This document shows positions 21,904-36,998 of a stretch of DNA of 41,092 bases, piece after piece; positions within the stretch are counted from its first letter, which is position 1; the number at the start of each line of letters is the position of its first letter. The stretch is from Oscillospiraceae bacterium (GTDB taxonomy: Bacteria; Bacillota; Clostridia; Oscillospirales; Oscillospiraceae), in NCBI GenBank assembly GCA_902761635.1, contig CACWLG010000055.1:1-41092 (forward strand), given 5' to 3'. The position numbers were made by a program, and so were the translations under genes. The notes below the pieces were generated by a model. The model ran no database searches. It was given only the letters and a program-made list of their open reading frames with translations, and was not told the DNA's origin.

Positions 21904-21921
21904 GGGGACCAGCTCCTTAAA

Positions 21922-21971
21922 CTTAATCGTTTACGTGATCTCAATGTAACGCAGTTCTTCAAAAATTGCAA
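21922..21971 (-). promoter_or_regulatory. lacI promoter and operator
   Basis: On the minus strand TTGCAA (21966-21971) and TACATT (21943-21948) are 17 nt apart. The operator-like TAAACGATTAAG (complement of CTTAATCGTTTA, 21922-21933) lies just past the -10, over the expected transcription start region. Confidence 0.65.
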
Positions 21972-22147
21972 GTCTTTTTTCGGAAAAAATCCTCCTTTGT
22001 AAGAAGATTGGTATACTTCCACAAAACAGGGCTGGACTATTTGGAAAATATCAACAAAAGAAAAAACGCATGATATGATGTCACGCTTCTGAAATACGGA
22101 TTTCTTTGTAAAATACATAGAAAAACTACTGATTTACAAAAAAGCAC

Positions 22148-22198
22148 TTGCTTTTTTCCAAAAAGTGCGGTACTCTCTAATAAACTTAAACGATTAAG
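22148..22198 (+). promoter_or_regulatory. Cellobiose phosphorylase promoter and LacI operator
   Basis: TTGCTT (22148-22153) and TACTCT (22171-22176) are 17 nt apart. The box TAAACGATTAAG (22187-22198), the same as near lacI, covers the start of transcription. A small inverted repeat GCACTT/AAGTGC (22144-22149, 22163-22168) overlaps the -35. Confidence 0.65.
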
Positions 22199-22213
22199 CG
22201 GAGGCGACGAATT

Positions 22214-24649
22214 ATGCAATACGGACACTTTGACGACGCGCGGCGCGAGTATGTGATCACCACACCGCGCACCCCTCTGCCCTGGATCAACTATCTGGGG
22301 AGCGAGGATTTCTTTACGCTGGTTTCCAACACGGCCGGCGGCTACAGCTTCTATCGGGACGCGCGCCTGCGCAGGCTCACGCGCTACCGCTACAACAATG
22401 CGCCGCTGGATCAGGAGGGCTTCCACCTATATATAAAGGACGGGGACTGCGTCTGGAATCCCGGCTGGCAGCCGGTGCAGACGGAGCTTGACAGCTACTG
22501 CTGCCGCCACGGTCTGGGCTACTCCGTGATCGAGGGAACCAAAAACGGCGTCAAGGTCACACAGGAGCTGATGGTGCCTCAGGGAGACAACTGCCTTCTC
22601 ATGCGTGTCACGGTGAGCAACGTCGGGGCGCAGGCAAAATCGGTCCGGCTCTTCCCTTATGTGGAGTTCTGCCTCTGGGATGCGATGGACGACTCCTCCA
22701 ACTTCCAGCGCAACTACTCCATCGGCGAGGTGGAGGTGGAGGGCGGCGCCATCTACCACAAGACCGAGTACCGCGAGCGCCGGGACCACTATGCCGTCTT
22801 CTGGGCAAACCGCACCCCGGCGGGCTTTGACACCTCGCGGGAGGCTTTTCTCGGCCTCTACGGGAGCCCCGCAAGGCCGGAGGCGGTGTTCGGCGCAGGC
22901 TGCACAAACAGTGTCGCCCACGGCTGGCAGCCCATCGCCGCCCAGCAGTTTGACATTACGCTTCAGCCCGGCCGGAGCGACAGCCTGCTCCTGGGCCTCG
23001 GCTATATTGAGAACCCGCAGGCGGAGAAGTGGGCAGCCCCCGGCGTCATCAACAAGACCCGCGCCGAGGCCATGATGGCCCGCTGCACCGACAGTGCCGC
23101 CTTTGACGGCGCGATGGAGAAGCTGCGCGCCTGCTGGGATAGGCTTCTGAACAACTACCGGGTCGTCACGGGTGATGCGCGCCTGGACCGCATGGTGAAT
23201 GTCTGGAACCAGTACCAGTGCATGGTCACCTTCAATATGAGCCGCTCGGCCAGCTACTACGAGAGCGGCATGGGCCGCGGAATGGGCTTTCGCGATTCCT
23301 GCCAGGATCTGCTGGGCTTTGTGCACATGATCCCGCAGCGCGCACGCGAGCGCATCCTGGACATCGCCGCCACCCAGTTTCCGGACGGCAGCGCCTATCA
23401 CCAGTACCAGCCCCTCACGAAGAAGGGCAACCTCGCCGTCGGCAGCGGCTTTAATGATGATCCTCTCTGGCTCATCGCCGGGACGGACGCCTATCTCCGC
23501 GAGACCGGGGACTGGAGCATTCTGGATGAGCAGGTGGATTTCGACAACGATCCCGGCCTGGCCCGGCCTCTTCTGGAGCATCTGCGCCGCAGCTTCCGCT
23601 ACACCTGCACCCATCTGGGCCCCCACGGCCTGCCGCTCATCGGCCGGGCCGACTGGAACGACTGCCTGAACCTCAACTGCTTCTCCGAGCATCCGGGGGA
23701 GAGCTTCCAGATCACCGGTCCCAGTGAAGGGCCTGTGGCAGAGAGCGTGTTTATTGCCGGCATGTTCGTCAAATACGGCCGCGCCTGGGCGGAAATCTGC
23801 CGCCATCAGGGCCTGGACGCCGAGGCGGACGAGGCGCTCACGGCCATTGAAAGCATGGAGAAGGCAGTGCTCGACGCCGGGTGGGACGGCGCCTGGTTCC
23901 GCCGCGCCTATGACGCTTTCGGTCACGTGGTCGGCGGAAAAGAGTGCGAGGAGGGCCAGATCTTTATCGAGCCCCAGGGCATGTGCGTCATGGCCGGCAT
24001 CGGCAAGGAGACGGGCGAGGCAGCCAAAGCCCTCAGGAGCGTTGAGGAGCGCCTGGATACCAGGTACGGCATTGTGCTTCTGAACCCCGCCTACACCCGC
24101 TATCATCTCGAGCTCGGGGAGATTTCCAGTTATCCCCCCGGATACAAGGAGAACGCCGGCATCTTCTGCCACAATAACCCCTGGATCGTGTGCGCCGAGG
24201 CGGAGCTCGGCCACGGGGACCGGGCCTTCCAGGTTTACCGCCGCACTGCTCCCGCCTTTATTGAGGACATCAGCGACATCCATCGCACCGAGCCCTATGT
24301 CTACAGCCAGATGGTGGCGGGCAAGGACGCTCCCAGCTTTGGCGAGGCCAAGAACTCCTGGCTCACCGGCACGGCAGCCTGGTCCTTCCTGTCGATCTCC
24401 CAGGCCATCCTGGGCGTGAAGCCGACCCTCGACGGGCTGGAGATTGCGCCCTGCGTTCCCTCCGGCTGCAGGGACTATACCGTGACACGAGCCTTCCGCG
24501 GGGCGGAATACGAGATCCGCGTACTCAATCCCGCGGGCGTGCAGCACGGGGTGAAGAGCGTTGCGCTCAACGGCAGGCCCCTCGAGGGCAATGTGATCCC
24601 GCCTCAGGCCGTCGGCACGAGGAACACAGTCGAGGTCCTGATGGGATAG
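22214..24649 (+). CDS. GH94 cellobiose phosphorylase
   Basis: This 811-aa cytoplasmic enzyme splits cellobiose with phosphate into glucose 1-phosphate and glucose. The N-terminal beta-sandwich starts with the family's [20 protein letters not shown]. The (alpha/alpha)6 barrel carries [19 protein letters not shown], a catalytic acid within [10 protein letters not shown] (Asp480/Asp483) and [11 protein letters not shown]. The C-terminal part has [13 protein letters not shown]. Length and motifs fit cellobiose phosphorylase better than the larger cyclic glucan or chitobiose enzymes, but specificity within GH94 is not certain. ATG 22214 has GGAGG 9 nt upstream. It is divergent from lacI and likely repressed by it. 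An intracellular phosphorylase fits the importer and GH5 enzyme encoded next door. Confidence 0.9.
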
Positions 24650-24662
24650 AACAGCAAAAGCT

Positions 24663-24941
24663 ATGAAAGACGATACTGTACAGGGCGAGATATGGCGGAA
24701 CATAACAGTGTCTTATGCCGTTCGGATCGGACAGAGCGGGTGGAAGCATGAGCGGCTTTTTGATGAAGCCGCTGTCTCGCATGACCCGGAGAAGCGTCGG
24801 CGCCTGAATGCCTGCTGCACGTCCGGCGAATGGCTGGAGGACTGTGAAGCGGATGAACGGGGTGAGCTGCCGCCTGATCTGAAGCGCGGCATACTTTCCC
24901 AGAATGCGTTGTATGAGCTGCTGGCGAAAGCAGAGCTGTGA
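24663..24941 (+). CDS. Small protein with a DUF4298-like C-terminus
   Basis: A 92-aa frame starts 13 nt after the phosphorylase stop, without a clear ribosome binding site. Its second half reads RRRLNACCTSGEWLEDCEAD and ERGELPPDLKRGILSQNALY. This matches the conserved end of DUF4298 proteins (from memory). The usual N-terminal helices of that family are not recognisable; residues 1-40 look unrelated. It is therefore probably a 5'-truncated, possibly dead, gene. The function of the family is unknown. Confidence 0.45.
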   Translation: MKDDTVQGEIWRNITVSYAVRIGQSGWKHERLFDEAAVSHDPEKRRRLNACCTSGEWLEDCEADERGELPPDLKRGILSQNALYELLAKAEL

Positions 24942-24998
24942 GCGGGCATGGAAATCTGCATACTGGAGAAAGAAAATGATTCGGGAACAATAAACGCA

Positions 24999-25135
24999 TA
25001 AGGCAATACCGCATAATTCGGCAAGAGCAGATCCTGAGAAAATTTGGGTTCTGATAAAGGCACTTTTTCGCAGATGTACTTTGTGTACCTCAAGACCAGG
25101 AGATGCCGAAGGCGGATTGTGCGGTGTTGCCTTAA
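24999..25135. mobile_element. MITE-like element, copy 2 (137 bp)
   Basis: The same terminal inverted repeats and flanks as copy 1 at 14904-15057, with one base change in the first 83 bp. The internal segment is shorter and unrelated (about 19 nt instead of 36). It is inserted between the DUF4298-like gene and the terminator of the DNA-damage operon. Confidence 0.8.
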
Positions 25136-25137
25136 AT

Positions 25138-25177
25138 AAAGATGCTGTCTGATCAGAAAAAAGCAGACAGCATCTTT
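25138..25177. terminator. Terminator of the DNA-damage operon
   Basis: AAAGATGCTGTCTG (25138-25151) and CAGACAGCATCTTT (25164-25177) form a 14-bp stem with a 12-nt loop. The A/T flanks make it work in both directions. It lies 13 bp after the SRAP gene stop. Confidence 0.8.
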
Positions 25178-25190
25178 TATTAAGCGGGAT

Positions 25191-25829
25191 TCACGTCGGC
25201 ACTTTCCCGTGTGCGTCCTTCTCAAAGACCACATCTGTCACGGCAGAGCCGATCAGCATGTGCGGATTTCGATTCGGGTCGATCCAGTGGCCGACTTCCG
25301 ACTCCGGCAGGATAAACGGCATCCTGTCATGGATGAAGGCGATGGATTCACCCGGCTCCCGCGTCAGGATAACAAAATGGGGGAAGTTGTCCTCCAGCCG
25401 GTAGAGCCCGCAGAGCCACGTGAGCTCGCCGCCCTTGGGCATGATGGCATATTTGTCCCCGGCTTTGGATTTGCCTGACGGCATGGGCACATGCTCCCAC
25501 TCATAGTACCAGGAGGCCGGGATCGCACAGCGGTGGGCGGCCCAGGAATCCCGGAAGCTGGCCTTTTCCGCTGCGGTCTCCACACGGGCGTTGGCAATGG
25601 TGCGGCTGATGCCGGGAACATGAAAGCCCCAGACCATCGGGAAAACACTCTTCTCTCCGGATTTGCTGGTGGCGATGACCGGCACCAGAGAATCCGGGAA
25701 CACTTCGCCCTCCGTAATCAGCGGTTTGGCCACCTTCTCAATGCTGCTTTGGTACAGCCTGGAGCGCTGCGCTGCCTCCACGATCGGGCGAAGCTGCGGG
25801 GACATCTCCATATAATAACGGCAGCACAT
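25191..25829 (-). CDS. SRAP-domain protein (HMCES/YedK type)
   Basis: This 212-aa protein is predicted to cross-link to abasic sites in single-stranded DNA and shield them. All catalytic positions are visible: Cys2 (MCCRYY), Asn80 and Glu84 in NARVET, Glu110 in ASWYYEWE, and His167 in HDRMP. Typical MC-GR is MC-CR here. The ATG at 25829 follows the YolD stop by one base and its AGGAGG lies inside that gene, so translation is coupled. It is the last gene of a LexA-like/Y-polymerase/YolD operon. That context matches the reported link of bacterial SRAP genes with SOS functions. Confidence 0.93.
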   Translation of the reverse strand: MCCRYYMEMSPQLRPIVEAAQRSRLYQSSIEKVAKPLITEGEVFPDSLVPVIATSKSGEKSVFPMVWGFHVPGISRTIANARVETAAEKASFRDSWAAHRCAIPASWYYEWEHVPMPSGKSKAGDKYAIMPKGGELTWLCGLYRLEDNFPHFVILTREPGESIAFIHDRMPFILPESEVGHWIDPNRNPHMLIGSAVTDVVFEKDAHGKVPT

Positions 25830-26327: not shown

Positions 26328-27728
26328 TTACGCGCGGTGCCCGCCGATCTGGGTGTTGCGCTCAATGGCGGTGGCGCCTTCCCGATAGTTTAAGCCCTTC
26401 AGCAGGGAGTTGGCTCCGTATTTCTTCCGTACCTCCAGCATGGCGCCCTCCAGCTTCCGCTCCTTTTGAAGAGCATCATAATCCGAGAAGAGGTCAAGCT
26501 GCCAGGCACTGTTGTCAGGCTGCACATCCTCGGCACAGATCCCGAGCCGCCGGAAGAGAAGCGCGTGATCTGTCTTTTTATCAAAGGAAGCCAGAACCGC
26601 CTGGACAATCACGCTCGGGGCGTTGGTGCGTGTACGCAGCCTGACGGTGCCACCTGAGTGGCAGGGGTGCAGCCGCCCGTAAAAGTCCAGCTTGACAGGG
26701 CCGCTGTACAGGGGATGCGCCTCGAGACTCTTGTAGTCGTAGGAGACCCACCAGCTCAGCGCGGGCGTCGTCAGATTCTTTGAAAAGAGATCGGCGCACA
26801 GAAGCTCCACCATCTCCTGGAATACGACGCGGGCCTCGTCATAGCGATAAGGGCGGGGGAGTACCTGCCCGTTGGATAAGCTGTTGGCGTTTGTCCTGTA
26901 GGACTTGATATCCTCCATCGTGACCGGCTCAATGCCCCAGGCGTGGTCAATGAGGATCTCACCGTCAATGCCGAAGGCGCGGTAGAAAAACTCCTCGTCC
27001 TTCATGGAGCGGACGGCAATATCGCCCATGCAGGTAAGATGCGCGTCCATCAGCCGCTTTGCCTTTCCGGGCCCCAGCCCCCAGAAATCCGTCAGCGGCG
27101 TGTGCTTCCAGAGGAGCTCGCAATAAGATCGTTCATCCAGCTCCGCGATGCGGACGCCGTCCTCGTCGGCGGGCGCTTTCTTCGCCACAATGTCCATGGC
27201 AACCTTGGCGAGATACAGATTCGTGCCGATGCCGACTGTGGCCGTGATACCGGTGCGCTCCAGCACCTCCCGGATCATGGTTTTCGCCATGACATGGGCA
27301 GGGCTCACGTGCTGGTGTTCAGCCTCTTTCTCAAAGCGGTAGAGATAGCGGGTACAGTCGATGAAGGCCTCGTCGATGCTGTAGATGTGGATATCCTCAG
27401 GGGCGACATAGTGCAGATAAATGGAAAAGATCAGCGCGGAGACGCGCTCATACTCCGCCATGCGCGGCGTGGCAATATAAAACTGCGTCTTCGTGCGGTG
27501 CTTCGCGTCATACAGGCGGATGGCCTGCTTTGCCTCAAAGAGCCGGGGGCGGGACGGCACGCCGATCGCCTTGAGGGCAGGGGAGACCGCAAGGCAGATC
27601 GTCTGATCCGAGCGGGTCACGTCGGCCACCAGGAGGCGTGCCTTGAGCGGATCAAGCCCGCGCGCCACACATTCAACAGAGGCATAGTAGGACTTGAGAT
27701 CAATGCAGATACAGGTGCGCGTGTCCAT
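26328..27728 (-). CDS. Y-family DNA polymerase (UmuC/UvrX type)
   Basis: This 466-aa translesion polymerase has catalytic Asp10 in CICIDLKSYYASVEC, the second acidic pair in YSIDEAF (Asp119, Glu120), and a fingers motif with AVSPALKAIGVPSRPRL. The thumb helix-hairpin-helix (FWGLGPGKAKRLM) and a little-finger region with SLSNGQVLPRPY follow. The start at 27728 has GGGAGG 5 nt upstream. Unlike DinB proteins it ends in a long C-terminal tail with a likely clamp-binding motif QLDLFSD, as in UvrX/UmuC proteins. It is encoded downstream of the LexA-like repressor and upstream of the YolD gene. Confidence 0.93.
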   Translation of the reverse strand: MDTRTCICIDLKSYYASVECVARGLDPLKARLLVADVTRSDQTICLAVSPALKAIGVPSRPRLFEAKQAIRLYDAKHRTKTQFYIATPRMAEYERVSALIFSIYLHYVAPEDIHIYSIDEAFIDCTRYLYRFEKEAEHQHVSPAHVMAKTMIREVLERTGITATVGIGTNLYLAKVAMDIVAKKAPADEDGVRIAELDERSYCELLWKHTPLTDFWGLGPGKAKRLMDAHLTCMGDIAVRSMKDEEFFYRAFGIDGEILIDHAWGIEPVTMEDIKSYRTNANSLSNGQVLPRPYRYDEARVVFQEMVELLCADLFSKNLTTPALSWWVSYDYKSLEAHPLYSGPVKLDFYGRLHPCHSGGTVRLRTRTNAPSVIVQAVLASFDKKTDHALLFRRLGICAEDVQPDNSAWQLDLFSDYDALQKERKLEGAMLEVRKKYGANSLLKGLNYREGATAIERNTQIGGHRA

Positions 27729-27747
27729 TCCGGCCTCCCTTCGGCTC

Positions 27748-28611
27748 TTATACCCGCGCAAAGCTGCGCAGCGTCAGATACGCCTCCACGTCCTCTTTTG
27801 ACGGGATATCCTTCTGTGAGACGATGCCGACCACGCGCCCGATCAGATACACGGACTGATCCTCGCCAAAGCGCAGCACGGCATACTTTCTGTTCAGCGA
27901 GTGCAGCCCGTCCTTCTCATAGCGCTTGATATAGGTTTCGTTCCCGACAATGAAGGCGCCGATCTCCCCATAGTGCAGGGCGCTGCCGCCGGAGAGCTTT
28001 TCCACCAGCACCATGTCACCGGTGTGATAGTCCGGCTCCATGCTGTCACCGTTGACGTTGAACACATAGTCCGAGCGCCTGACCTCCGGGGAGGCATAGA
28101 GATAGTAGGGCTCGGCGTCCTGCTCAAACTCGGTTGGGTCGGCGGCGCCGGCTGCAAGAGAGCGTGAGAAGAACAGCAGCTTCTTCATTTCCGGCTGCGC
28201 CGCGGCGGACTGGACAAACTGCAAGGTTTCAACAGCCCTGTCAATGGCGTACTGATGCCCGGGGCTGAGCCTGCGATACCCGTCCACAAGCGTCTTCTCG
28301 CGTGATGTGAGAGAATCCGCGGGCGCTGTCATCCCGTAGAGATCGTAGAGCGTGATATGCAAAGCCTCGCATATGGCGGGGATCAGGTTCAGATCGGGAC
28401 GGGATCGCCCGCACTCCCAGTTGCTGACGGCGTTGAAGGTCACGCCGATCTGCGCGGCCAGGGCTTTCTGCTCCATTCCCAGCCTTTCCCGGAAAAATTT
28501 GATGCGGCTGCAAATCACGGCGGGCAGGGCCTTTTCCAGTGTCTTCCCGTTGTTCAGATCGACGACGATGCTTCCCGGCACAGTCGGCGTTTCTATCTTG
28601 CGGCGTGCCAT
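27748..28611 (-). CDS. LexA/CI-like repressor with Xre helix-turn-helix and S24 peptidase domain
   Basis: This 287-aa repressor starts at ATG 28611, 8 nt after GGAGG. The family N-terminus has MARRKIET and a tail rich in P/V/D. The Xre-type helix-turn-helix spans about 34-92 (QKALAAQIGVTFNAVSNWE). The C-terminal S24 domain has Ser190 in NGDSMEP and Lys229 in YIKRYE, the catalytic dyad of self-cleavage. A candidate cleavage bond is Ala154-Gly155 (SLAAGAADP). It is probably inactivated by RecA-stimulated cleavage after DNA damage, releasing the downstream polymerase, YolD and SRAP genes. TTTACGTAAA at its promoter is the likely operator. Confidence 0.9.
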   Translation of the reverse strand: MARRKIETPTVPGSIVVDLNNGKTLEKALPAVICSRIKFFRERLGMEQKALAAQIGVTFNAVSNWECGRSRPDLNLIPAICEALHITLYDLYGMTAPADSLTSREKTLVDGYRRLSPGHQYAIDRAVETLQFVQSAAAQPEMKKLLFFSRSLAAGAADPTEFEQDAEPYYLYASPEVRRSDYVFNVNGDSMEPDYHTGDMVLVEKLSGGSALHYGEIGAFIVGNETYIKRYEKDGLHSLNRKYAVLRFGEDQSVYLIGRVVGIVSQKDIPSKEDVEAYLTLRSFARV

Positions 28612-28647
28612 AAACATGACCTCCTTTGCAGTGGGTGCTGCCTTTGG

Positions 28648-28685
28648 TTTACGTAAATCATAACACAAAAAACTGCGAAAGTAAA
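28648..28685 (-). promoter_or_regulatory. Promoter and operator of the DNA-damage operon
   Basis: On the minus strand TTTACT (28680-28685) and TATGAT (28657-28662) are 17 nt apart. The perfect palindrome TTTACGTAAA (28648-28657) abuts the -10 and is the best candidate for the repressor's own operator. A degenerate copy (TTTACATAAA) sits before the repressor remnant at 10.6 kb. Confidence 0.65.
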
Positions 28686-28689
28686 TCGT

Positions 28690-28966
28690 TTAAAATCACA
28701 AAATAATAGAGCAAAGATTTGTTGAATCTCTTTTCCGCTGCCAATAGAGAGCCGGGGCCGCAGTCCGGCTTCTGCTTGGCAAGGGCGTATTGCGTCTTTT
28801 TGGGGATTCATTCGGCATTTCCCGAAATACAGCTTTGCTGTCAGAAAAGGGTTTGTCCAGAAAAAGCCGGCAGATTGATGGACATGATCTTGAGCATCTG
28901 ACACAGATGTGATATTCTTTTTTATGGGTATCGGCTTTCATCAGCTAAGCGTCGAAACTGCCATTG
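28690..28966. other. Intergenic region without recognised gene
   Basis: Both strands have short open frames but none has a ribosome binding site and family resemblance. It separates the DNA-damage operon from a palindromic repeat. Confidence 0.4.
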
Positions 28967-29054
28967 CGTAGGGGTCGATCCCCAGATCGACCCGAACCCC
29001 GGTTCACTGCACAAGCCATCAGGTTTCGGGCTGATGAGGGCATCAGCCCCTACG
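28967..29054. repeat. Palindromic intergenic repeat (CGTAGGGG...CCCCTACG)
   Basis: Outer arms CGTAGGGG (28967-28974) and CCCCTACG (29047-29054) enclose two hairpins with 4-nt loops: GGGTCGATC/GATCGACCC (28972-28980, 28985-28993) and GGGCTGATG/CATCAGCCC (29028-29036, 29041-29049). Elements of this style with variable inner arms are common between genes of gut Clostridia. Confidence 0.75.
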
Positions 29055-29235
29055 GGGCAGGTTATACGTTGTTCGCGTTGAACACCCGATACCCAATTTC
29101 TTTTTTTAAATAGTCCGGCTCGCTGCATGCCTGTCGCTTCAGCTGCGGCACAAGCTCCTTTCGGCGCCTCGGCCTTACCATATTGGTCCGCGCTTTCACA
29201 GGATTTCATTCTGGATGTATTTCAGGAGAACAAAA

Positions 29236-29760
29236 ATGGAGATGAATAAGCCCATGATAAGAAGGATACTTGGTTTCATGATGTCAGTTTCCCTGCTGCT
29301 TGGGCTGCTGCCGGGGATGAGCCTTACGGCGCATGCGCAGGAAACAAGCGCAAGCGGCGACAGCCGTCATCGCACCCGGTCAAACGGCGGCACGGCAGAC
29401 GGGTGGAGTTACGTAGAGATCGGAGACGGCACCCTGCGTCTCACGGGCTATGAAGGCGAGGAAAGCGAGCTCGTGGTTCCGGCGATGATCGGCGAGCAGA
29501 CGGTGACGGAGCTCGGGGACGGCGCCCTCGCGGGAAAGCCGGGGCTCTACAGCGTCACGGTTTCGGAGGGGATCACCGCCATCGGCGCGAACGCCTTCCG
29601 GAACTGCACGGGTCTGACGCAGATCCGTCTGCCCAAAAACTGCGCGATCAGCGACACTGCCTTCACCGGCTGCACAAGCCTGATCGCCGTCTATGCTCCC
29701 GCGGGCGGTACGACCGAAGCATGGTGCATACGGGCGGATATCCCGTTCGCCGGGGAATGA
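29236..29760 (+). CDS. Secreted leucine-rich-repeat (BspA-like) protein
   Basis: This 174-aa exported protein has a signal peptide (two K/R clusters, a hydrophobic core ILGFMMSVSLLLGLLPG, cleavage after AHA). A low-complexity spacer follows, then a BspA-type LRR_5 domain with YSVTVSEGITAIGANAFRNC, TGLTQIRLP and DTAFTGC repeats. Such domains mediate adhesion or protein contacts outside the cell. With only about two repeats it is short for the family. ATG 29236 has AGGAG 7 nt upstream. No sortase or other anchor motif is seen, so it should be released or part of a larger complex. The mechanosensitive channel gene follows 41 nt downstream. Confidence 0.85.
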   Translation: MEMNKPMIRRILGFMMSVSLLLGLLPGMSLTAHAQETSASGDSRHRTRSNGGTADGWSYVEIGDGTLRLTGYEGEESELVVPAMIGEQTVTELGDGALAGKPGLYSVTVSEGITAIGANAFRNCTGLTQIRLPKNCAISDTAFTGCTSLIAVYAPAGGTTEAWCIRADIPFAGE

Positions 29761-29801
29761 GATCAGGCAGAATTTGACGGAATAGAAAGGAGAAAGCCAT
29801 C

Positions 29802-30641
29802 ATGGAAATCGCCGGCGTTGACCAAGCTGTACAGCAAACCCGTGAAAACCTGAATACACTCACCGGCAGCCTTGCCCTCAACACGCTCGTCTCGGGGCTT
29901 GTCACCTTCCTGGTCTGCGTCATCGCCATCCGCATCCTCAAGGCGGTGCTGACCAGGACGCTCAACCGGATGACCCGGCTCGACCCGCCCATACGGAACC
30001 TCATCATCAAGCTCGTCACGACACTTCTGTGGGTACTGACGATTATCATCGTGGCCGGGGCTTTCGGCATCAACGCGACCTCGCTCGTGGCCGTGCTCAG
30101 CGTAGCAGGTCTTGCGTTGTCGCTGTCCGTGCAGAACCTGCTGACAAATTTCTTCTCCGGTATCATGCTGCTGATCAACAAGCCTTTCAAGGAGGGCGAC
30201 TTTGTTGAGATCAGCGACAAGATGGGTACCATCAAGAACATCGGGTTCTTCAACACGATCCTTGCCACGCCTGACAATGTCTCCATTGTGATCCCCAACG
30301 GCGACCTTACCGCTGCGGCAGTCAAAAATTACAGCCGCGAGCCCAATCGCCGGGTCGATCTCACGTTTTCTGCTTCCTACGACGCAAGGACCGAAGCCGT
30401 CAAGGAGGCTGTCCGGGAGGCGATCGGCATGGATTCCCGCATACTCCCCGAGCCGGCGCCCTTTGTACGTCTATTGTCCTATGACGCAAGCTCCATCCGA
30501 TATGCTGTTCGCGTATGGTGCAAGAATGCGGACTACTGGGATGTCTACTTTGATCTCAACGAACATGTTCGAGAGTGCTTTGAGAAGCACGGCGTTGAAA
30601 TGAGCTACGAGCACATCAACGTCCACATGATGGAGAAGTAG
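29802..30641 (+). CDS. mscS: Small-conductance mechanosensitive channel (MscS family)
   Basis: This 279-aa membrane channel opens under membrane tension to release osmolytes. Three transmembrane segments lie at about 27-47, 67-88 and 93-120. The pore helix is VAGLALSLSVQNLLTNFFSG. The beta domain follows with PFKEGDFVEI and VSIVIPNGDLT, then the mixed alpha/beta C-terminal domain. Length equals E. coli MscS (286 aa). Its start has AAAGGAG upstream. With the osmoprotectant transporter at 5-8 kb, it gives this segment both uptake and emergency release of solutes. Confidence 0.93.
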   Translation: MEIAGVDQAVQQTRENLNTLTGSLALNTLVSGLVTFLVCVIAIRILKAVLTRTLNRMTRLDPPIRNLIIKLVTTLLWVLTIIIVAGAFGINATSLVAVLSVAGLALSLSVQNLLTNFFSGIMLLINKPFKEGDFVEISDKMGTIKNIGFFNTILATPDNVSIVIPNGDLTAAAVKNYSREPNRRVDLTFSASYDARTEAVKEAVREAIGMDSRILPEPAPFVRLLSYDASSIRYAVRVWCKNADYWDVYFDLNEHVRECFEKHGVEMSYEHINVHMMEK

Positions 30642-30747
30642 CGCAGCGGCACTGGCCGCCCCGGCGCGTGTCACGGAACGCCATGAGCTGTTTCACCATC
30701 ATATCGTCATAATCAGGGAGGCGCAGGAAAAAAGAACAAAAACGATA

Positions 30748-30796
30748 TTGACACGATGTCAGAATGCTGCTATACTGCGTTTTGACATCGTGTCAA
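30748..30796 (+). promoter_or_regulatory. Consensus promoter bracketed by twin palindromic operators
   Basis: TTGACA (30748-30753) and TATACT (30771-30776), spaced 17 nt, form a perfect-looking promoter. TGACA-CGA-TGTCA (30749-30761) overlaps the -35 and TGACA-TCG-TGTCA (30783-30795) lies just after the -10. Their centres are 34 bp apart. Together the two sites form a 14-bp inverted repeat. The pattern fits a TetR-type repressor that is not encoded nearby. Confidence 0.75.
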
Positions 30797-30822
30797 TATA
30801 CTGTTTGAAAGGGAGTATCACA

Positions 30823-31362
30823 ATGAAAAAGAATACGGGAGCACAGCTTGCGCTGTATCCGGCGCCGGTGATCGTGGTCGGCGCAATGGTGGACGGAAAG
30901 CCGAACTGGACGCTGGTGGCCCACGCGGGCATCATGGCGCACAGTCATTTGATGCTCTCCATGGTCAAGGCGCACTATACCAACAAGGGTATCCGGGAAA
31001 ACAAGGTCGTCTCCGTCAACGTCGTGGACGCCTCCTGGCTCAGGGATGCGGATAAAATGGGCTGCGTCAGCGGCAGCAAGACCGACAAGTCCGAAGCCTT
31101 TGCCTGCACCCTCGGCGAGAAGGGCGCACCGATGATCGACGAGGCCAAGGTCACGATGGAGTGTGAGGTGGAGGATATCTACGATCTCCAGGGCTTTGAC
31201 AATTTCATCTGCCGCATCACCGGGACCTATGTGGAGGAGGACATTCTGACCGAGAAGGACAAGATCGACTACCGCAAATTCAAGCCCGTGCTGTTCCAGT
31301 TTCCGACCTATGAGTATCTGGAGACCGGGGATGTGCTCGGCGCCTGCATGAAAATGAACTGA
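30823..31362 (+). CDS. Flavin reductase-like protein (FMN-binding split barrel)
   Basis: This 179-aa cytoplasmic protein belongs to the Flavin_Reduct/FMN-binding split-barrel family. It has ALYPAPVIVVGAMVDGKPNW, the flavin-contacting HAGIMAHSHLMLSM and AHYTNKGIRENKVVSVNV, and DYRKFKPVLFQ near the end. Such proteins supply reduced flavin or act as flavin-dependent oxidoreductases in anaerobes. ATG 30823 follows GGGAG by 8 nt. It is the first gene after the twin-operator promoter and is followed after 33 nt by the exported DUF362 gene. The context points to feeding electrons to the exported flavodoxin system downstream (inference). Confidence 0.87.
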   Translation: MKKNTGAQLALYPAPVIVVGAMVDGKPNWTLVAHAGIMAHSHLMLSMVKAHYTNKGIRENKVVSVNVVDASWLRDADKMGCVSGSKTDKSEAFACTLGEKGAPMIDEAKVTMECEVEDIYDLQGFDNFICRITGTYVEEDILTEKDKIDYRKFKPVLFQFPTYEYLETGDVLGACMKMN

Positions 31363-31395
31363 TTTTCATTGTAAAGCAGAAAAGGGGAGGTCAAC

Positions 31396-32343
31396 ATGAA
31401 AAAACTGTTCGCTTTGCTCCTGGTCCTGTCTCTTGTGCTTGCGCTGTCCGTACAGGCTGCGTCGGCCGAGGAGGGCGCGCCCACGGTGTATTTCACCGCG
31501 GACATCTCGCCCGAGGGCCTGCAGCGCGTATATGACGCTTTGAACTGGACGCCCGCCGGAAAGCTCGCCGTCAAGGTCTCCACCGGGGAACCGCCCGCCA
31601 GCAACTACCTCCGCAGTGATCTGATCGGCCCGCTGGTGCAGTCCATCGGCGGCACGATCGTCGAGTGCAACACCGCCTACGGCGGCTCCCGCGCAAGCTC
31701 CGCCCTGCATAAGCAGGTGGCGGCGGACCACGGCTTCACTTCCTTTGCGGACTTCGACCTTATGGACGAGGAGGGAGAGGTGCAGTGGCCCGTGACCGGC
31801 GGCAAACGCCTGGAGTACGCCATCGTCGGCAGCCACGCGGAAAACTATTCCGACTGGCTGATCCTGTCCCACTTCAAGGGCCACGCCATGGCGGGCTTCG
31901 GCGGCGCGATCAAGAATATGGCCATCGGCATGTCCTCGCCCAGCGGCAAGGTCTATGTCCACTCTGCCGGAACGCGCACCAGCGGCAGCATCATGCACAG
32001 CGATCAGGATGCCTGGCTGGAGGCCCTGGGCGAGATGGTGACCGCCGTGCGCGACCATGTGGGCGAGGCGCACATCGTCTATATCAACGTCATGAACCGC
32101 CTTTCCGTGGACTGTGACTGCGACGGCAACCCCGCCGAGCCGGATATCCACGACATCGGCATCCTTGCCTCCACAGACCCGGTGGCTCTGGATCAGGCCT
32201 GCATCGACCTCGTGTGGCAGGCGGAGGGCAATGAGTCCCTTATCCGCCGTATCGAGTCCCGCGAAGGTCTGCACACGCTGGAATACGCCGCCGAGATCGG
32301 CCTCGGCAGCAGAACGTATGATCTGGTGAATCTGGATGACTGA
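31396..32343 (+). CDS. Exported DUF362-domain protein
   Basis: This 315-aa protein has a signal peptide (MKKLFALLL core, cut after ASA). The DUF362 body shows SNYLRSDLIGPLVQSIGG, GGSRASSALHKQ, the signature GHAMAGFGGAIKNMAIG, and the Cys cluster VDCDCDGNPAEPDIHDIG with DPVALDQACIDL. Cytoplasmic DUF362 proteins are often fused to ferredoxins and linked to electron transfer, but their reaction is unknown. Export is uncommon and agrees with a role beside the lipoprotein flavodoxin encoded next. GGGGAGG precedes ATG 31396. Confidence 0.88.
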   Translation: MKKLFALLLVLSLVLALSVQAASAEEGAPTVYFTADISPEGLQRVYDALNWTPAGKLAVKVSTGEPPASNYLRSDLIGPLVQSIGGTIVECNTAYGGSRASSALHKQVAADHGFTSFADFDLMDEEGEVQWPVTGGKRLEYAIVGSHAENYSDWLILSHFKGHAMAGFGGAIKNMAIGMSSPSGKVYVHSAGTRTSGSIMHSDQDAWLEALGEMVTAVRDHVGEAHIVYINVMNRLSVDCDCDGNPAEPDIHDIGILASTDPVALDQACIDLVWQAEGNESLIRRIESREGLHTLEYAAEIGLGSRTYDLVNLDD

Positions 32344-32469
32344 TTAAACGGAAAAACGATTGAAAACCGAACGCTTTGTCTCCGACGATTCCGGCCAGCC
32401 GGAAAAGGAGCGGAAGGATATGGAGAGGAAGCGCAGACAATCCTGACATACAGGAAGGGAGTAAAACAA
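32344..32469 (+). other. Spacer between the DUF362 and flavodoxin genes
   Basis: 126 bp without a gene. A good ribosome binding site (AGGAAGGGAG) stands near 32453-32462 for the flavodoxin gene. No terminator-like hairpin or promoter is evident, so readthrough is likely. Confidence 0.4.
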
Positions 32470-33153
32470 ATGAAAACAAAACTGACTGCAATATTTCTTC
32501 TGCTTGCCCTGACGCTTGTTTCCGCAGGCTGCGGCAGCGCTCCGGCGCAGGCGACATCCACACCGGCACCCGCACAGACCCCCGCAGCCACACCGGCGCC
32601 CACACAGGCGCCGGCGACTCCGGCCCCCGCGCAGACACCCGAGGCCGCTGCCGAAAAAGCACCCGCTGAGCCCGCGCAGGAAAACAAGAGCCTTGTCGTG
32701 GTGTTCTCCTGCACCGGCACCACGAAGGGTGTCGCGGAAAAGATCGCGGCCCTCACCGGCGCAGAGCTTGTGGACCTCGTCCCGGCCCAGCCCTACACGG
32801 CAGAGGATCTCAATTACAATGACCGTTCGACCCGCGCCACCGTGGAGCAAAACACCCCTGACGCACGTCCGGAGATCGCGGAAGACATCCCGCTCGACGG
32901 CGTCACTACTCTTTACCTCGGCTACCCCATCTGGTGGGGGCAGGCCCCGCGCATCATGAGCACCTTTGTGGAGAGCCATGACTTTACCGGCATCACCGTC
33001 ATCCCGTTCTGCACCTCCGGCGGCAGCGGCGCGGGCCGCACCGGGGAGACCCTGGGCGAACAGGCCGGGACCGGCACCTTCCTCGCTTCCACGCGCTTCA
33101 GCTCCGGCGTTTCCGATAACGAGCTGCAGAGCTGGATCGACAGCCACAAATGA
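32470..33153 (+). CDS. Surface-anchored flavodoxin (lipoprotein)
   Basis: This 227-aa lipoprotein has a lipobox LVSAGC with Cys21 and a ~50-residue tether of repeated PAPAQTPAATPAP units (22-72). The flavodoxin domain follows with FMN phosphate loop SCTGTTKG (80-87), the ring-stacking strand LYLGYPIWWGQAPRIM with Trp, and FCTSGGSGAGRT. The flavodoxin should therefore hold FMN on the outer face of the membrane, at the end of a flexible arm. Most flavodoxins are cytoplasmic. The gene overlaps the next one by 4 nt (ATGA), so the membrane DUF4405 protein is made together with it. Confidence 0.92.
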   Translation: MKTKLTAIFLLLALTLVSAGCGSAPAQATSTPAPAQTPAATPAPTQAPATPAPAQTPEAAAEKAPAEPAQENKSLVVVFSCTGTTKGVAEKIAALTGAELVDLVPAQPYTAEDLNYNDRSTRATVEQNTPDARPEIAEDIPLDGVTTLYLGYPIWWGQAPRIMSTFVESHDFTGITVIPFCTSGGSGAGRTGETLGEQAGTGTFLASTRFSSGVSDNELQSWIDSHK

Positions 33154-34085
33154 GCAGCATGCAGAGCATCAAGCGGGACGGCCTGCGGAAGCTTGTGGAT
33201 CTGTGCATGCTTCTCCTTCTGCTGTGCCTCATGGCCTATCAGGTCACAGGGGAGGAGAAGCACGAGTGGACGGGCATCGTTATGACTCTGACCGTCCTTC
33301 TCCACCAATACCTCAACCGGCGCTGGTACGCGGCGCTTTTCAAGGGCAGGTACAACGCTTACCGCAGCGTCACGACGGCGGTCAACCTCCTGCTTCTGGC
33401 GTCCATGCTGGTGACGGCCTTCTGCGGCATGTCCATGAGCGAGTACGCCGTGCCCTTCTTATATTGGGCGCGGGGGCTGATGGTTGTGCGCCCGGCGCAC
33501 CTTGCCATGAGCCACTGGAGCTTCGTGCTGATGGGGCTGCACCTGGGCCTGCATGTGCCGCTCATGCTCGGCAGGATGAAAGACGGCGCGCGTTCGATCC
33601 TTACCGCTGTCGGCGCGGTGATCGCCGGTGTCGGCCTCTGGCTGTTTCTCAGGAACGGGATGCCGAACTATCTCTTCTTCCGTGTGCCCTTTGCCTTCCT
33701 GGACTATGAGAAGGCGTTCTGGCTTGTCTTTCTGGAAAACACCCTGATGCTCAGCACCTGGGTCTTCCTCGGCGCGGAGCTTGCTGTTTTGTGCATGAAG
33801 CGGAAGAAGAAACCGGCGCTGATCCTTGGAAGCGTTGCCGCCGCGGCGGTGCTCGGCCTTGTGTTAAACACTGCCTTTCCGGGCGACAACGATCTGGACT
33901 TCGACGCGGCCTGGAACGTCCCCGAGGCACAGCCTGCCGAGACGGCCTATACCCCGGAGCCTCTCGCAGAGAGCGCAGCGCCCGCGGAATTGAACGACGG
34001 CTTTGTGCTCATCCCAGCCGGGCGCAGCGGCCTTTCGGCCAACGTGAGCGCGTGGCTGGAGAAAAACAACATCGAACACGGATGA
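33150..34085 (+). CDS. DUF4405 membrane protein, possible b-type haem electron carrier
   Basis: This 311-aa integral membrane protein has about six hydrophobic segments. The DUF4405 region contains histidines spaced as in membrane cytochromes: His38 and His52 (EEKHEWTG, VLLHQYLN), His117, His122, His131 and His135 (AHLAMSHWSF, GLHLGLHVPL). Two helices carrying such pairs could ligate haem b, but no haem binding can be read directly. A soluble C-terminal tail (about 235-311) contains DDGFVLIPAGRSGLSANVS-like sequence with a proline/glutamate-rich spacer. Coupled to the flavodoxin gene, it is a natural candidate to pass electrons across the membrane to it. Confidence 0.83.
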   Translation: MSSMQSIKRDGLRKLVDLCMLLLLLCLMAYQVTGEEKHEWTGIVMTLTVLLHQYLNRRWYAALFKGRYNAYRSVTTAVNLLLLASMLVTAFCGMSMSEYAVPFLYWARGLMVVRPAHLAMSHWSFVLMGLHLGLHVPLMLGRMKDGARSILTAVGAVIAGVGLWLFLRNGMPNYLFFRVPFAFLDYEKAFWLVFLENTLMLSTWVFLGAELAVLCMKRKKKPALILGSVAAAAVLGLVLNTAFPGDNDLDFDAAWNVPEAQPAETAYTPEPLAESAAPAELNDGFVLIPAGRSGLSANVSAWLEKNNIEHG

Positions 34086-34091
34086 AACTGA

Positions 34092-34124
34092 GAGCCGGTA
34101 CCGCGTTGATTGCGGTACCGGCTC
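34092..34124 (+). terminator. Terminator of the redox operon
   Basis: GAGCCGGTACCGC (34092-34104) and its complement (34112-34124) form a perfect 13-bp stem with a 7-nt loop, starting 7 bp after the DUF4405 gene stop. Confidence 0.75.
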
Positions 34125-34173
34125 ATGGTTGTGTCAGTATTGTGCGCGCGGAGGCTGCTATCGAAGGAATCGG

Positions 34174-34266
34174 CTAAGGCAGTCTCATCTCGGCCAGCAG
34201 CTCATAGATGAAATCGTCATCAAGAGGCTGCTGGCCTTGCGTTTCTGCGGTTTCGGCAGAATTCAT
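34174..34266 (-). CDS. Possible small acidic protein
   Basis: A 30-codon minus-strand frame from ATG 34266 reads MNSAETAETQGQQPLDDD and FIYELLAEMRLP, with GAGGAG 12 nt upstream. The frame stays open and protein-like upstream (VFDDHEESENP), so the true start may be a GTG further right. It would follow the 862-aa protein gene on the same strand. I know no family; it may be a degraded end. Confidence 0.28.
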   Translation of the reverse strand: MNSAETAETQGQQPLDDDFIYELLAEMRLP

Positions 34267-34409
34267 CGGATTTTCACTCTCCTCGTGATCATCAAATACG
34301 TCATTGACGCAAACCACGAGACAAGAGGATAGCACAAATCCGCCGTTTGGGCAAGTCCAGAAAATACCAGGCGTCAGGCGGGGACGAGCACAGCGGTCTG
34401 CGGCATCCC

Positions 34410-36998
34410 TCAGCGCGGCAGGGGAATCCTCCGCGCAACAAGAAAACGCTCGCTGGAGAGGTCGTAATACTCCCAGATTTCGCCCTGCGGCATGCGCTGC
34501 AGATAGATGACATCCTCCATGCCGTCCGGCGAATCGACAAGCGCTGCAAGCTCATTTCCGCTTTTCAGCGCCTGCTCCCGGAAAACGCGCGTGCTTGCCC
34601 CCTCAAACACAGCCGAGTACAGGATCTCCGCCTCTACAAGATCCTGGAAAATATGGCTGCCGTAGCTGAGCTCGGGCATATATCCGGCCCGGCGGTCCGC
34701 AAGCTCCAGGATCGTGTCAAACTCACTGATGTCGGAAAACTCCGTCGGCACCCCAAGCTCGGGAGAGCTGGTGCAGATCCGGCCGGGTGTGATGAGGAGC
34801 ATCCGCTTCCGCTGCCCGCGCAGGCGCCAGTTGATGGCCGAGAGAGTCTGCTTGACGCGGTATTTGTCGCGGTAGGGCAGATGATAATAGGCGACCGGGT
34901 CCACATATACCAGCACATCCAGGGGGAAGCTGCGGGAGAAGCCCATGGAGGTGCCGATGGTTTCGATCAGAATATCCTCCTCCCGGAGATCTGCCGGGAT
35001 GGAGACCTTCTCGCCGGTACGGGTAAGCTGCAGGGGGCGGCATTGCAGCAGGCTGATCACATACTCGCCCGTTGCGGCACAGTTGATGGTGTACTCGATA
35101 TCGACCGGATAGGCGTAGGTATCCTGCAGCAGGCGCAGGATCTCGCCCATATCCCGCATCAGGACCCTGTTGCTGACAAGACCTTCACAGGAGACGTACA
35201 GCACATCCTCGCGGATGCCCTGTTCCCGCAGGATGGTCTCCGTCTCCCGGTCGTGGGAATAGAGCAGCGCGCTCAGATAGGGCGGGAGCGCCGCGCGGAT
35301 CGCCTCGGCGTCCCGGTTTTCCACACCGTCGGACTTGTCACTGACCACGTCCACCAGGCGCTGAGAGAACTGATGGCGGTCCGCTGAGGAGGTCTGCCAG
35401 ACAACGGAGGGCTTGTCGAGCGCGACCATGCGCGGGTAGGAGCCTGTGCGGCGGTCCACCGCGGCGGTGCCGAGCCCGCATACGAGGCGCAGCATGCCCT
35501 TCTCGGGATGATCGACGCCGAAGCGGTAGGGACTGGACGAATAGCCGACGCCTGCCGCGCACGGCATGAAAAAGCCCGCGTAGTGGGAGCCGGAGACCCG
35601 CTGGACAAGAATGCCCATCTGCTCGTCCAGATGCTCAAGGCCGCGTCGCTTTCGATAATCCAGCGCCGAGAGGCTGAGCGTGCTGGCGTAGACGGTGCGG
35701 ATGGCGGATTCAAACGCATGCAGGCGCTCCTCCGCTGACCCGTGATTGCTGCAGAAAACGGATTCGTATTTCCCGGCAAAGGCGTTGCCGAAGCCGTCCT
35801 CGAGGATGGAGCTTGAGCGCACGATAATGGGCTCGTTGCCGTAGTATTCCAGAAGCTGGCGGAAGTGGGTGCCAAGCGCCGGGGAAAACGCACCGCTGAG
35901 CAGGGCTTCCGAAAAGGCCTGCGCCTGAGAAAAATACCCGTCCGCCGTCTTCTGGCTGAGCTTGAGATCCCACAGGCCGTTATCCACGATGAAGGAGTAG
36001 AACACGTCGGAGCCGATGTAAAAGGAATCATGCGGCTCGATGCGCTCAAAAAGCGCCGCGTCCCGGTTCTGAATGATCTTTCTCGACAGCAGCATCCCGC
36101 AGGCCTTGCCGCCGATGAGACCTGTGCCGATCATGCGGTCGTGGATTTCAAAATAGTCCTCGGGCTGAAACTGCCGGACGATCATGTCCCGCATGCGTTT
36201 GTCGCGCGTGAGCATGATATCGCACATGCGGTCACACTCCTGCCGGATATCCAGCCCCGCGTCATATTTTACGCGCGCGGCGTGAAAGAAGCGCTCCCAG
36301 CTGTCCATGCTCTGGCTGTTTTTGAGCCCCTTTGCGTCGTTCAGGCTGCGGTAAAAGCGGCTGAGCTCCACGCTCTCCGACACGGGATAGAAGCTACCGT
36401 CCTTGAGATCGCAGCCGTAGGGCTGGGCCAAATGGGCAAGCGGTCTCTCCCAGACCTTTTCCGCCCGGAAAAAGAGCCTGTCCCGTCCTCCGGGGAAAAC
36501 GTCCAGAAAGAGCTGCGTGGTGTTCGCGATAATGTCGATCGCATCAAAGGAGTGCCTGCCGCGCAGGACCGGGAAATACGCGACCGTGTCCAGAGAGAAG
36601 AGAAACGGACAGGTCAGGTGAAAGAAATTTCCCATCATGAGATCGGTTGCCCAGGCCTCCTCCAGCTCCGAGAGACAGTCAAAGACGTAGAAGGCGTCCC
36701 GGCCTTCCCGTTCGATCAGATTGTGAATATCCACCGTGAAGGATTCAAAGAGATGGGAGAGAGGAACATGCACCTCCCGCACACCGGGCATGGCCGGCAG
36801 GATGGGATCGTGTCCGGCAAAGCGGATGTAAAGGATGTTCCGCCCGTCCCGGACGGCCTGCTTGGCAAAGGCTTCGGCGAAGACGCGAAATTCATCCAGC
36901 TCTGATACCTGCCACACCACATTGTCCCCCAGACGGATCGAATCAAGACAGCAATCCAGCCCCGGAATGCCGGAGAGGATCGGTTCAAAAGCGGCCAT
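34410..36998 (-). CDS. KaiC-like/PEP-synthase-like hybrid protein (PEP/pyruvate-binding domain)
   Basis: This 862-aa cytoplasmic protein has three parts. Residues 1-190 look like a KaiC/RecA-fold domain (SGIPGLDCCLDSIRLGDNVVWQV, Walker-B-like FYVFDCLSEL) but without a Walker A loop. Residues 290-660 match the ATP-grasp nucleotide-binding half of PEP synthase/pyruvate phosphate dikinase: GGKACG (296-301), VRSSSILEDGFGNAFAG (393-409), GLGTAAVD (508-515), DIEYTIN (633-639) and QCRP (652-655). Residues 670-862 carry PGRICTSSPELG (738-749) and PELSYGSHIFQDLVE (775-789), a conserved module of unknown role. The phosphohistidine swivel (GGxTSHAA) and the PEP/pyruvate barrel are missing, so it cannot be a normal PEP synthase. 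A phosphotransferase or ATP-dependent sensor is a guess. Expression probably passes an attenuator at 37037-37065. Confidence 0.85.
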   Translation of the reverse strand: MAAFEPILSGIPGLDCCLDSIRLGDNVVWQVSELDEFRVFAEAFAKQAVRDGRNILYIRFAGHDPILPAMPGVREVHVPLSHLFESFTVDIHNLIEREGRDAFYVFDCLSELEEAWATDLMMGNFFHLTCPFLFSLDTVAYFPVLRGRHSFDAIDIIANTTQLFLDVFPGGRDRLFFRAEKVWERPLAHLAQPYGCDLKDGSFYPVSESVELSRFYRSLNDAKGLKNSQSMDSWERFFHAARVKYDAGLDIRQECDRMCDIMLTRDKRMRDMIVRQFQPEDYFEIHDRMIGTGLIGGKACGMLLSRKIIQNRDAALFERIEPHDSFYIGSDVFYSFIVDNGLWDLKLSQKTADGYFSQAQAFSEALLSGAFSPALGTHFRQLLEYYGNEPIIVRSSSILEDGFGNAFAGKYESVFCSNHGSAEERLHAFESAIRTVYASTLSLSALDYRKRRGLEHLDEQMGILVQRVSGSHYAGFFMPCAAGVGYSSSPYRFGVDHPEKGMLRLVCGLGTAAVDRRTGSYPRMVALDKPSVVWQTSSADRHQFSQRLVDVVSDKSDGVENRDAEAIRAALPPYLSALLYSHDRETETILREQGIREDVLYVSCEGLVSNRVLMRDMGEILRLLQDTYAYPVDIEYTINCAATGEYVISLLQCRPLQLTRTGEKVSIPADLREEDILIETIGTSMGFSRSFPLDVLVYVDPVAYYHLPYRDKYRVKQTLSAINWRLRGQRKRMLLITPGRICTSSPELGVPTEFSDISEFDTILELADRRAGYMPELSYGSHIFQDLVEAEILYSAVFEGASTRVFREQALKSGNELAALVDSPDGMEDVIYLQRMPQGEIWEYYDLSSERFLVARRIPLPR

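Follow-up and report, generated by a model that had tools for sequence, protein, structure and literature searches.

A putatively TetR-controlled operon, probably for extracytoplasmic electron transfer, with a surface flavodoxin, a DUF4405 membrane protein and an exported DUF362 protein, in an Oscillospiraceae bacterium

This study concerns a four-gene operon of an Oscillospiraceae bacterium (GenBank assembly GCA_902761635.1, here genome G000), which may provide the cell with an inducible route for electrons across the membrane and which lies on contig CACWLG010000055.1, the 41,092 nucleotides of which were analyzed as a whole and are termed the window. An earlier sequence-only reading had described four genes running in one direction, and all four were confirmed as open reading frames (ORFs) with Pfam families on the plus strand (g1 to g4, 30823-34085). 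The first, g1 (30823..31362), encodes a flavin reductase-like split-barrel flavoprotein of 179 aa (PF01613 Flavin_Reduct, 57.1 bits, 3e-15) in which no signal peptide was seen and which is 96-98% identical to the copies in the related genomes G037, G027 and G054. The product of g2 (31396..32343) is an exported DUF362 protein of 315 aa (Pfam DUF362, 5.5e-38) whose Sec-type leader was located by eye (AASA/EEG, residues ~1-24). The lipoprotein flavodoxin encoded by g3 (32470..33153) carries Flavodoxin_4 at residues 73-224 (PF12682, 138.7 bits, 1.4e-40); inspection by eye revealed the lipobox LVSAGC with Cys21, a tether of ~52 Pro/Ala/Thr-rich residues (about 22-73) ahead of the flavodoxin, and an intact flavin mononucleotide (FMN) loop, SCTGTTKGVAE. 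The ATGA at 33150-33153 constitutes the overlap with g4 (33150..34085), which encodes a DUF4405 membrane cytochrome-like protein of 311 aa (PF14358, 30.4 bits, 5.5e-7; cut-off 26.7). Five of its histidines, H38, H52, H117, H131 and H135, are invariant in 13 aligned relatives; g4 thus has a DUF4405 domain with conserved central His. Leader, lipobox, a tether of about 50 residues, FMN loop, gene overlap and the histidines of the DUF4405 protein had all been named by the sequence-only reading and are borne out here.

The start of the operon has to be revised. It had been placed at 30748, but the TTG at this position lies inside an operator, where it is part of a -35 hexamer, and was therefore rejected as the start of g1, which begins with ATG 30823 downstream of a purine-rich ribosome site. 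Operator 1, TTGACACGATGTCA (30748..30761, plus strand), was read directly from the sequence and includes the -35 hexamer TTGACA (30748-30753). The promoter scan placed the -10 hexamer TATACT (30771..30776, plus strand) between operator 1 and operator 2, TGACATCGTGTCAA (30783..30796, plus strand), which was likewise read directly and is kept in relatives; the 13-base cores of the two operators start 34 bp apart. With 11/12 consensus matches, TTGACA-17-TATACT is the best of three promoter-like sites in 30600-34400. It is flanked by two copies of TGACAnnnTGTCA 34 bp apart, and this pattern occurs with ≤1 mismatch at three sites across the whole window, compared with 0.18 expected. Downstream of g4, a hairpin with a 14-bp stem (34092..34124, plus strand; minimum free energy -36.7 kcal/mol for 34080-34150, z -5.24) possibly marks the transcript end. 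The terminator claimed earlier is thereby upheld as a strong hairpin only: it has no T-run and was not among the terminator-like sites found in a scan of the window region.

When the 3.59-Mb G000 genome was scanned with the 14-base pattern TTGACAYSRTGTCA, five matches at four sites were obtained, exclusively at the window operon and on contig C8 (L006); a control with the reversed pattern gave none. On C8 the operator pair is followed by genes for TetR (L006 6550-7179, minus strand), CMD, Flavodoxin_4 and FMN_red, and a 44-codon g1 remnant (L006 7200-7331, 61% identical), which separates the TetR gene from the operator pair, is, to judge from its sequence, a trace of operon splitting or copying. 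As the operator pattern is common to these two places only, the window operon and the C8 genes look like two halves of one putative TetR regulon. Relatives in which both halves are joined are G054 (g1-g2-TetR-CMD-g3-g4) and G059 (g2-TetR-CMD-g3-g4). Within the genus, the operator pair precedes the set in the window, G037, G027 (C2), G054, G059 (C1), G024 and G021 and is also present in a short locus of G045 (L050); it was not found in L040, L041, L042, L044, L048 and L051, nor in L049, where the contig begins within g4.

A contig scan for relatives of the DUF4405 gene gave 275 loci from named genomes, and counts across a wider range of organisms refer to the 80 best of these. Many of these contigs end early, so that gene counts are lower bounds, and 8/80 loci duplicate records of genus or order relatives (e.g. 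L149 = G037, L227 = G086). The operator pair occurs in 40 of the 80 loci (41 pairs), and Markov controls gave 0/80 in each of 10 first-order resamplings. The arms are spaced by 36 in 24 and by 34 in 13 of the 41 pairs, in most of which a -10-like hexamer was noted by eye between them. The next identified gene downstream is TetR in 25 cases, g1 in 10, g2 in two and another gene in four, and TetR and the pair are found together in 31/80 loci. Among 47 TetR proteins, the DNA-binding part is more conserved than the remainder (mean majority share 0.87 vs 0.72). Taken together, a predicted palindromic operator sits at the operon promoter and is common to the TetR gene's own promoter region, and binding of TetR to it is put forward as putative.

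The gene neighborhood is conserved as well, a test that the sequence-only reading had set beforehand: the set is kept within the genus, in other Bacillota and in three metagenome-assembled genomes (MAGs) of Chloroflexota lineages (L185, L194, L195) among the 80 loci. A flavodoxin gene lies ≤400 nt upstream of DUF4405 in 68/80 loci. TetR was counted in 49, CMD in 40, FGE in 26, DUF362 in 24, FMN reductase in 23 and g1 in 18 loci; additional recurring genes, counted as ORF clusters with Pfam run on one member per cluster, encode an aldo/keto reductase (36), an ArsP_1-like permease (12), ABM (9) and cupin (4) proteins. According to their titles, the 80 loci stem from MAGs of Oscillospiraceae/Ruminococcaceae, Lachnospiraceae, Erysipelotrichaceae and others, many of them from the rumen or herbivore gut. 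Since some records, e.g. Lachnospiraceae AD3010, NK4A179 and FE2018, Sarcina sp. DSM 11001 and Butyrivibrio sp. AC2005, bear no MAG label, cultured hosts exist; Sarcina sp. DSM 11001 (L170) combines TetR, CMD, g3 and an intact fusion. In a sample of 119 genomes of relatives, G000 included, DUF4405 matches were present in 19. In G148 (L146, 1984-2683) another copy of the set is damaged: a deletion has fused the CMD gene, with loss of frame, to the latter half of a DUF362 gene, and an aldo/keto reductase-like ORF lies upstream.

The proposal that the flavodoxin resides outside the cell is well in line with the wider sample: a lipobox was recognized by pattern in 53 of the 63 DUF4405-adjacent flavodoxins with a complete 5' end, tethers also occur in relatives, and g3 is predicted to be an extracytosolic Flavodoxin_4 protein. 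Among the ten without the pattern (L160, L166, L174, L178, L181, L182, L185, L194, L195, L199), L160 and L195 are of cytosolic type, at least one lipobox, that of L178, was missed by the pattern and L182 has no lipobox Cys. Strand 1 and helix 1 are connected by a loop of seven residues in 62/62 measured flavodoxins (six of 68 being cut or atypical), and therefore the flavinylation insert is missing from the DUF4405-adjacent flavodoxins; neither was it present between strand 1 and helix 1 of g3. With the G000 ApbE as the query (E 1e-3; the positive control matched), tblastn detected no ApbE in the window, L006, L032-L051, L121-L148 and L149-L228, many of these loci being short and FMN_bind not having been searched there. 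Elsewhere G000 contains one ApbE on contig C16 and 12 FMN_bind matches. Such a widespread family of surface flavodoxins without insert and without ApbE nearby implies that FMN would be held outside the cell non-covalently or in some other mode. Two further arrangements deserve mention in this context: on contig C44 of G000 (21319-25570), frames of 681 and 1275 aa with several tandem FMN_bind domains likely encode multi-flavinylated electron carriers, and the same-genus loci L040, L041, L042 and L044 contain flavodoxin-flavodoxin-DUF4405 clusters with an FMN-loop insert (by eye) and no operator pair.

In some relatives, G059 among them, g4 encodes a much longer protein of ~715-798 aa that consists of DUF4405, a linker, an FGE-like domain (PF03781, 158.8 bits for the full-length fusion) and Flavodoxin_4. 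Seven helices are predicted and the basic loops were assigned by eye to the inside, which places the tail outside the cell. The mean pLDDT of the fusion model is low (68), and structural matches were therefore used for single domains only: Foldseek neighbors of the FGE-like domain are a Treponema variable protein, FGE and PvdO, and no cytochrome appeared for the DUF4405 part of this low-confidence model among the 50 matches listed. By sequence comparison, g4 of the window is an in-frame internally deleted relative of this fusion. Residue 292, at the start of the FGE-like domain, is joined to the last 19 flavodoxin residues, such that the final ~30 residues of g4 consist of the FGE-like beginning and the flavodoxin end. 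The scar maps to 34018..34025 on the plus strand, with the FGE-like start on its 5' and the flavodoxin end on its 3' side; in blastn against the G069 tail, g4 nucleotides 736-876 match its 5' side and nucleotides 869-942 its 3' end. G037 and G027 contain other in-frame deletions with junctions unlike that of G000, and microhomology at all three junctions, judged by eye, amounts to only a few bases. An assembly fault, for which it could be argued that two contigs, those of L034 and L049, break off or start within that same part of g4, is not favored, given that the three junctions differ and show little microhomology and that damaged tails also occur in drafts not labeled as MAGs (L159, L162).

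Full-length FGE-flavodoxin tails were found in four of the 119 sampled genomes (G059, G069, G086, G102); G000 yielded no such tail, only flavodoxin matches. Where the fusion is intact, its outer part is well kept: among 18 intact fusions the median identity to G059 is 53% (31-69) for DUF4405, 76% (63-87) for the FGE-like domain and 75% (69-84) for the flavodoxin, and the FGE part is more alike than DUF4405 in 171/171 fusion pairs. Tail states in the 80 loci were classified by eye. Sixteen loci have an intact fusion, counting L180, where the contig ends three residues short, and one fusion (L205) is open at the contig end. Nine tails are shortened in frame with the flavodoxin end retained (L149, L150, L152, L158, L162, L166, L167, L168, L188, with L158, L166 and L188 classed so from a short tail) and ten are broken (L151, L157, L159, L164, L165, L169, L171, L198, L211, L228), i.e. 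19 of the 36 loci with a recognizable tail are damaged. The remaining 44 lack a recognizable tail, some being cut by the contig end and one (L189) being fused to DUF362. From these counts, DUF4405 is the constant part, to which a tail is attached that is either well kept or lost. It looks dispensable, since many relatives, such as G024 and G021, keep a DUF4405-only protein. Selection for an open frame was considered because the deletions in G000, G037 and G027 are all in frame; with nine in-frame and ten broken tails overall it is not shown.

Several gene fusions tie the parts to each other. A lipoprotein flavodoxin and DUF362 form a single ORF in L048, L130 and L131, as well as in L128 with a truncated flavodoxin; DUF4405 is connected to DUF362 via a linker in L189; and the DUF362 protein of L134 possesses a lipobox of its own. 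Single cases such as L189 are possibly products of chance deletion. Each pair of DUF4405, flavodoxin and DUF362 is nevertheless found fused, and the three therefore probably cooperate in one path or complex outside the cell. This also renders doubtful the earlier statement that no terminal acceptor is encoded, because the exported DUF362 protein, being fused elsewhere to flavodoxin and to DUF4405, is the best candidate for a terminal enzyme.

DUF362 is grouped in the same Pfam clan as the DUF2088/Lar_N LarA superfamily, as stated in a passage of PMC11770544, and the exported DUF362 protein has the fold of the nickel-pincer lactate racemase LarA. In hhalign, H163, K173 and H189 of g2 fall on H174, K184 and H200 of LarA, a part of its active-site motif, albeit weakly (E 0.057) and in an alignment whose seven LarA rows had been selected, among 12 loci, with a pattern for the same His/Lys/His motif. 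The three residues are invariant in 31/31 DUF362 proteins and their spacing is kept in 30/31. For LarA residues D72, R75 and H108 the extended hhalign alignment offers no clear equivalent; it is unreliable in that region. A search of PDB sequences with the DUF362 profile yielded one chance match (E 0.7), and in the accessible parts of the open-access literature no described function was found for DUF362. It is unlikely that a Sec-exported protein carries the nickel-pincer nucleotide (NPN) cofactor; terms for NPN use without larA are absent from PMC11796402, as are LarA residue-number terms from PMC12611868. No LarA (Lar_N) was found in G000, which is 86% complete and has five DUF362 matches. 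Lar_N matches above the cut-off are likewise missing from 21 of 35 related genomes with LarC, and 18 of these 21 have DUF362. Across 60 genomes, LarC and DUF362 are weakly associated (32/35 vs 14/25, Fisher p 0.002, relatedness being ignored), with p 0.11 within the genus and p 0.64 outside. Contig C13 of G000 (L242 6107-11034) combines XdhC-like, LarC, LarE-like and LarB-like ORFs, all except LarC recognized by eye.

We consider it probable, at roughly 0.6, that the operon builds an inducible extracytoplasmic electron-transfer unit. Export, anchoring, shared operators and partnership of the parts are supported by sequence evidence. Heme in the DUF4405 protein, already suspected in the sequence-only reading, is expected by analogy with another Oscillospiraceae DUF4405 homolog, for which a published passage reports a heme b spectrum (mSystems 2024, PMC11334425). 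In the proposed mechanism, an inducing small molecule would release TetR, and electrons derived from NAD(P)H would enter the DUF4405 protein, possibly via g1 or quinol, and be moved through the membrane on heme b. At the outer face they would be accepted by the lipid-anchored g3 with its non-covalently held FMN; since the flavodoxin domain once fused to g4 has been lost in G000, g3 would be the sole outer carrier. From there, electrons would pass to the exported LarA-fold protein g2 as the likely terminal oxidoreductase, an assignment for which the chances, within the electron-transfer interpretation, are slightly below even. The aldo/keto reductase, CMD, ABM, FMN reductases and ArsP_1-like permease of relatives suggest that a reactive small molecule resembling a quinone or carbonyl is reduced or detoxified. 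No evidence was found for dietary compounds as acceptors, for which gene content alone was examined. A more far-reaching and doubtful idea is that exported DUF362 proteins constitute a new class of extracytoplasmic LarA-fold oxidoreductases driven by surface flavodoxin and DUF4405 cytochrome. Such an enzyme may use a metal centre at the LarA-like His/Lys/His site together with the invariant DCDC motif of the exported DUF362 proteins, and the reactive small molecule that it reduces may also induce the operon via TetR.

A number of points weigh against this interpretation. The Pfam match of g4 to DUF4405 barely exceeds the cut-off, and with 24 and 18 of 80 loci neither DUF362 nor g1 is obligatory near DUF4405. 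TetR occurs without the operator pair in 18 loci, the pair without TetR in nine, and neither in 22; in G000 itself the TetR gene is on a different contig from the operon. DUF362 might, given its likeness to LarA, act in something other than redox chemistry, and the quinone or carbonyl inducer is suggested by gene names alone. The electron-transfer role of the set, a donor to DUF4405, the direction of electron flow, the place of DUF362 at its end and the inducer are all inferences.

The earlier proposal of electron transfer through the membrane to an external flavodoxin stands as far as neighborhood and surface location are concerned; constitutive extracellular respiration is disfavored, since an operon forming half of a putative TetR regulon argues for a small-molecule response instead. 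Respiratory transfer to an external acceptor for anaerobic energy gain, a role assumed for the flavinylation-based systems, with TetR only tuning expression, is rated as unlikely: the core of DUF4405 and extracytosolic Flavodoxin_4 is that of published clusters, and no TetR was detected in 31/80 loci, some of them cut by contig ends, but ApbE was absent from the searched loci (FMN_bind was not included in that search), and the operator pair along with aldo/keto reductase, CMD, ABM and ArsP_1-like genes resembles an inducible stress or detoxification set. Still less likely is that the system is decaying in the window strain and the operon perhaps non-working, as could be concluded from the internal deletion in g4 with the loss of its outer half, from the displaced TetR gene and from the 19/36 damaged tails (ten broken, nine shortened in frame), which include those of AD3010 and NK4A179, neither labeled as a MAG. 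However, conservation extends to DUF4405, g3 and both operators, all of them intact, many relatives such as G024 and G021 manage with a DUF4405-only protein, and G000 retains a TetR gene with the same operator. An MsrPQ-like function in which exported proteins or components of the cell wall are repaired by redox chemistry, with flavodoxin and DUF362 as the repair enzyme, would agree with the order of flavin reductase (g1), cytochrome and exported enzyme and with the resemblance of DUF4405 to MsrQ-like structures reported in PMC11334425, but is improbable given that g1 is present in 18/80 loci only, that the window operon encodes no methionine sulfoxide reductase and that TetR regulation goes along with small-molecule enzymes.

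The surroundings of the operon can be described briefly. Immediately upstream (29215-30641, plus strand), Pfam identifies an MscS channel and, ahead of it, a short leucine-rich-repeat protein of BspA type. On the minus strand, a Y-family DNA polymerase (IMS) adjoins an HTH/S24 peptidase regulator in an SOS-like pair (26328-28668), and an 862-aa protein encoded downstream (34410-36998) consists of ~290 residues without an assigned domain and, behind them, the ATP-binding domain of pyruvate phosphate dikinase (residues 294-674). At the Rfam gathering threshold there were no matches in 28500-36000 and hence no known RNA element. A role in anti-phage defence was ruled out, PADLOC giving no matches for g1 to g4 and TetR.

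Operators, fusion and deletion of g4, gene fusions and the LarA likeness of DUF362 are features absent from the sequence-only reading. They bear on the wider meaning of the set: the fusions define DUF4405, flavodoxin and DUF362 as partners and give DUF362 a first functional setting as well as a fold relative, and the TetR operator provides a handle on the inducer and hence on the substrate. If the LarA-fold interpretation holds true, cytosolic DUF362 proteins could be further users of a pincer-type cofactor. Anaerobes of the rumen and gut possess a switchable gene set that most likely moves electrons through the membrane to a flavin protein tethered outside and from there to an exported enzyme. 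Extracytosolic electron transfer by DUF4405 and Flavodoxin_4 is already published as a kind, while the TetR-controlled, ApbE-independent form with DUF362, an FGE-flavodoxin fusion and an optional tail was not found in the open-access literature; searches there on the theme of surface flavodoxins found none.

Four known systems invite comparison. Fre feeds MsrQ, and in MsrPQ the possible flow from a cytosolic flavin reductase via a membrane heme protein to an exported enzyme is similar, with flavodoxin and DUF362 here taking the place of MsrP outside the cell. In contrast to LarA, the DUF362 protein is exported, shorter and equipped with the invariant DCDC motif. PF03781 and Foldseek relate the tail domain of the fusion to the FGE-sulfatase/PvdO/TvpA fold; in the present case it sits between cytochrome and flavodoxin and is deleted in the window. 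In the G059 fusion, inspection by eye of the C-terminal segment RGGGWNDF...YRAAG revealed no Cys, whereas FGE has there the Cys pair of its active-site copper centre. Closest are the flavinylation-based clusters of gut Firmicutes, in which, according to PMC11334425, DUF4405 is combined with an ApbE-flavinylated Flavodoxin_4, apbE and a loop insert, and extracytosolic flavodoxins, unlike cytosolic ones, bear signs that flavin is attached covalently; the terms 'duf362' and 'formylglycine' are absent from the paper's main text. A DUF4405 membrane protein with conserved histidines is common to both kinds of cluster, as is an extracytosolic Flavodoxin_4. They differ in that no ApbE was found nearby and no flavodoxin insert is present in the system described here, which is instead distinguished by the FGE-flavodoxin fusion, DUF362, CMD and TetR with its double operator.

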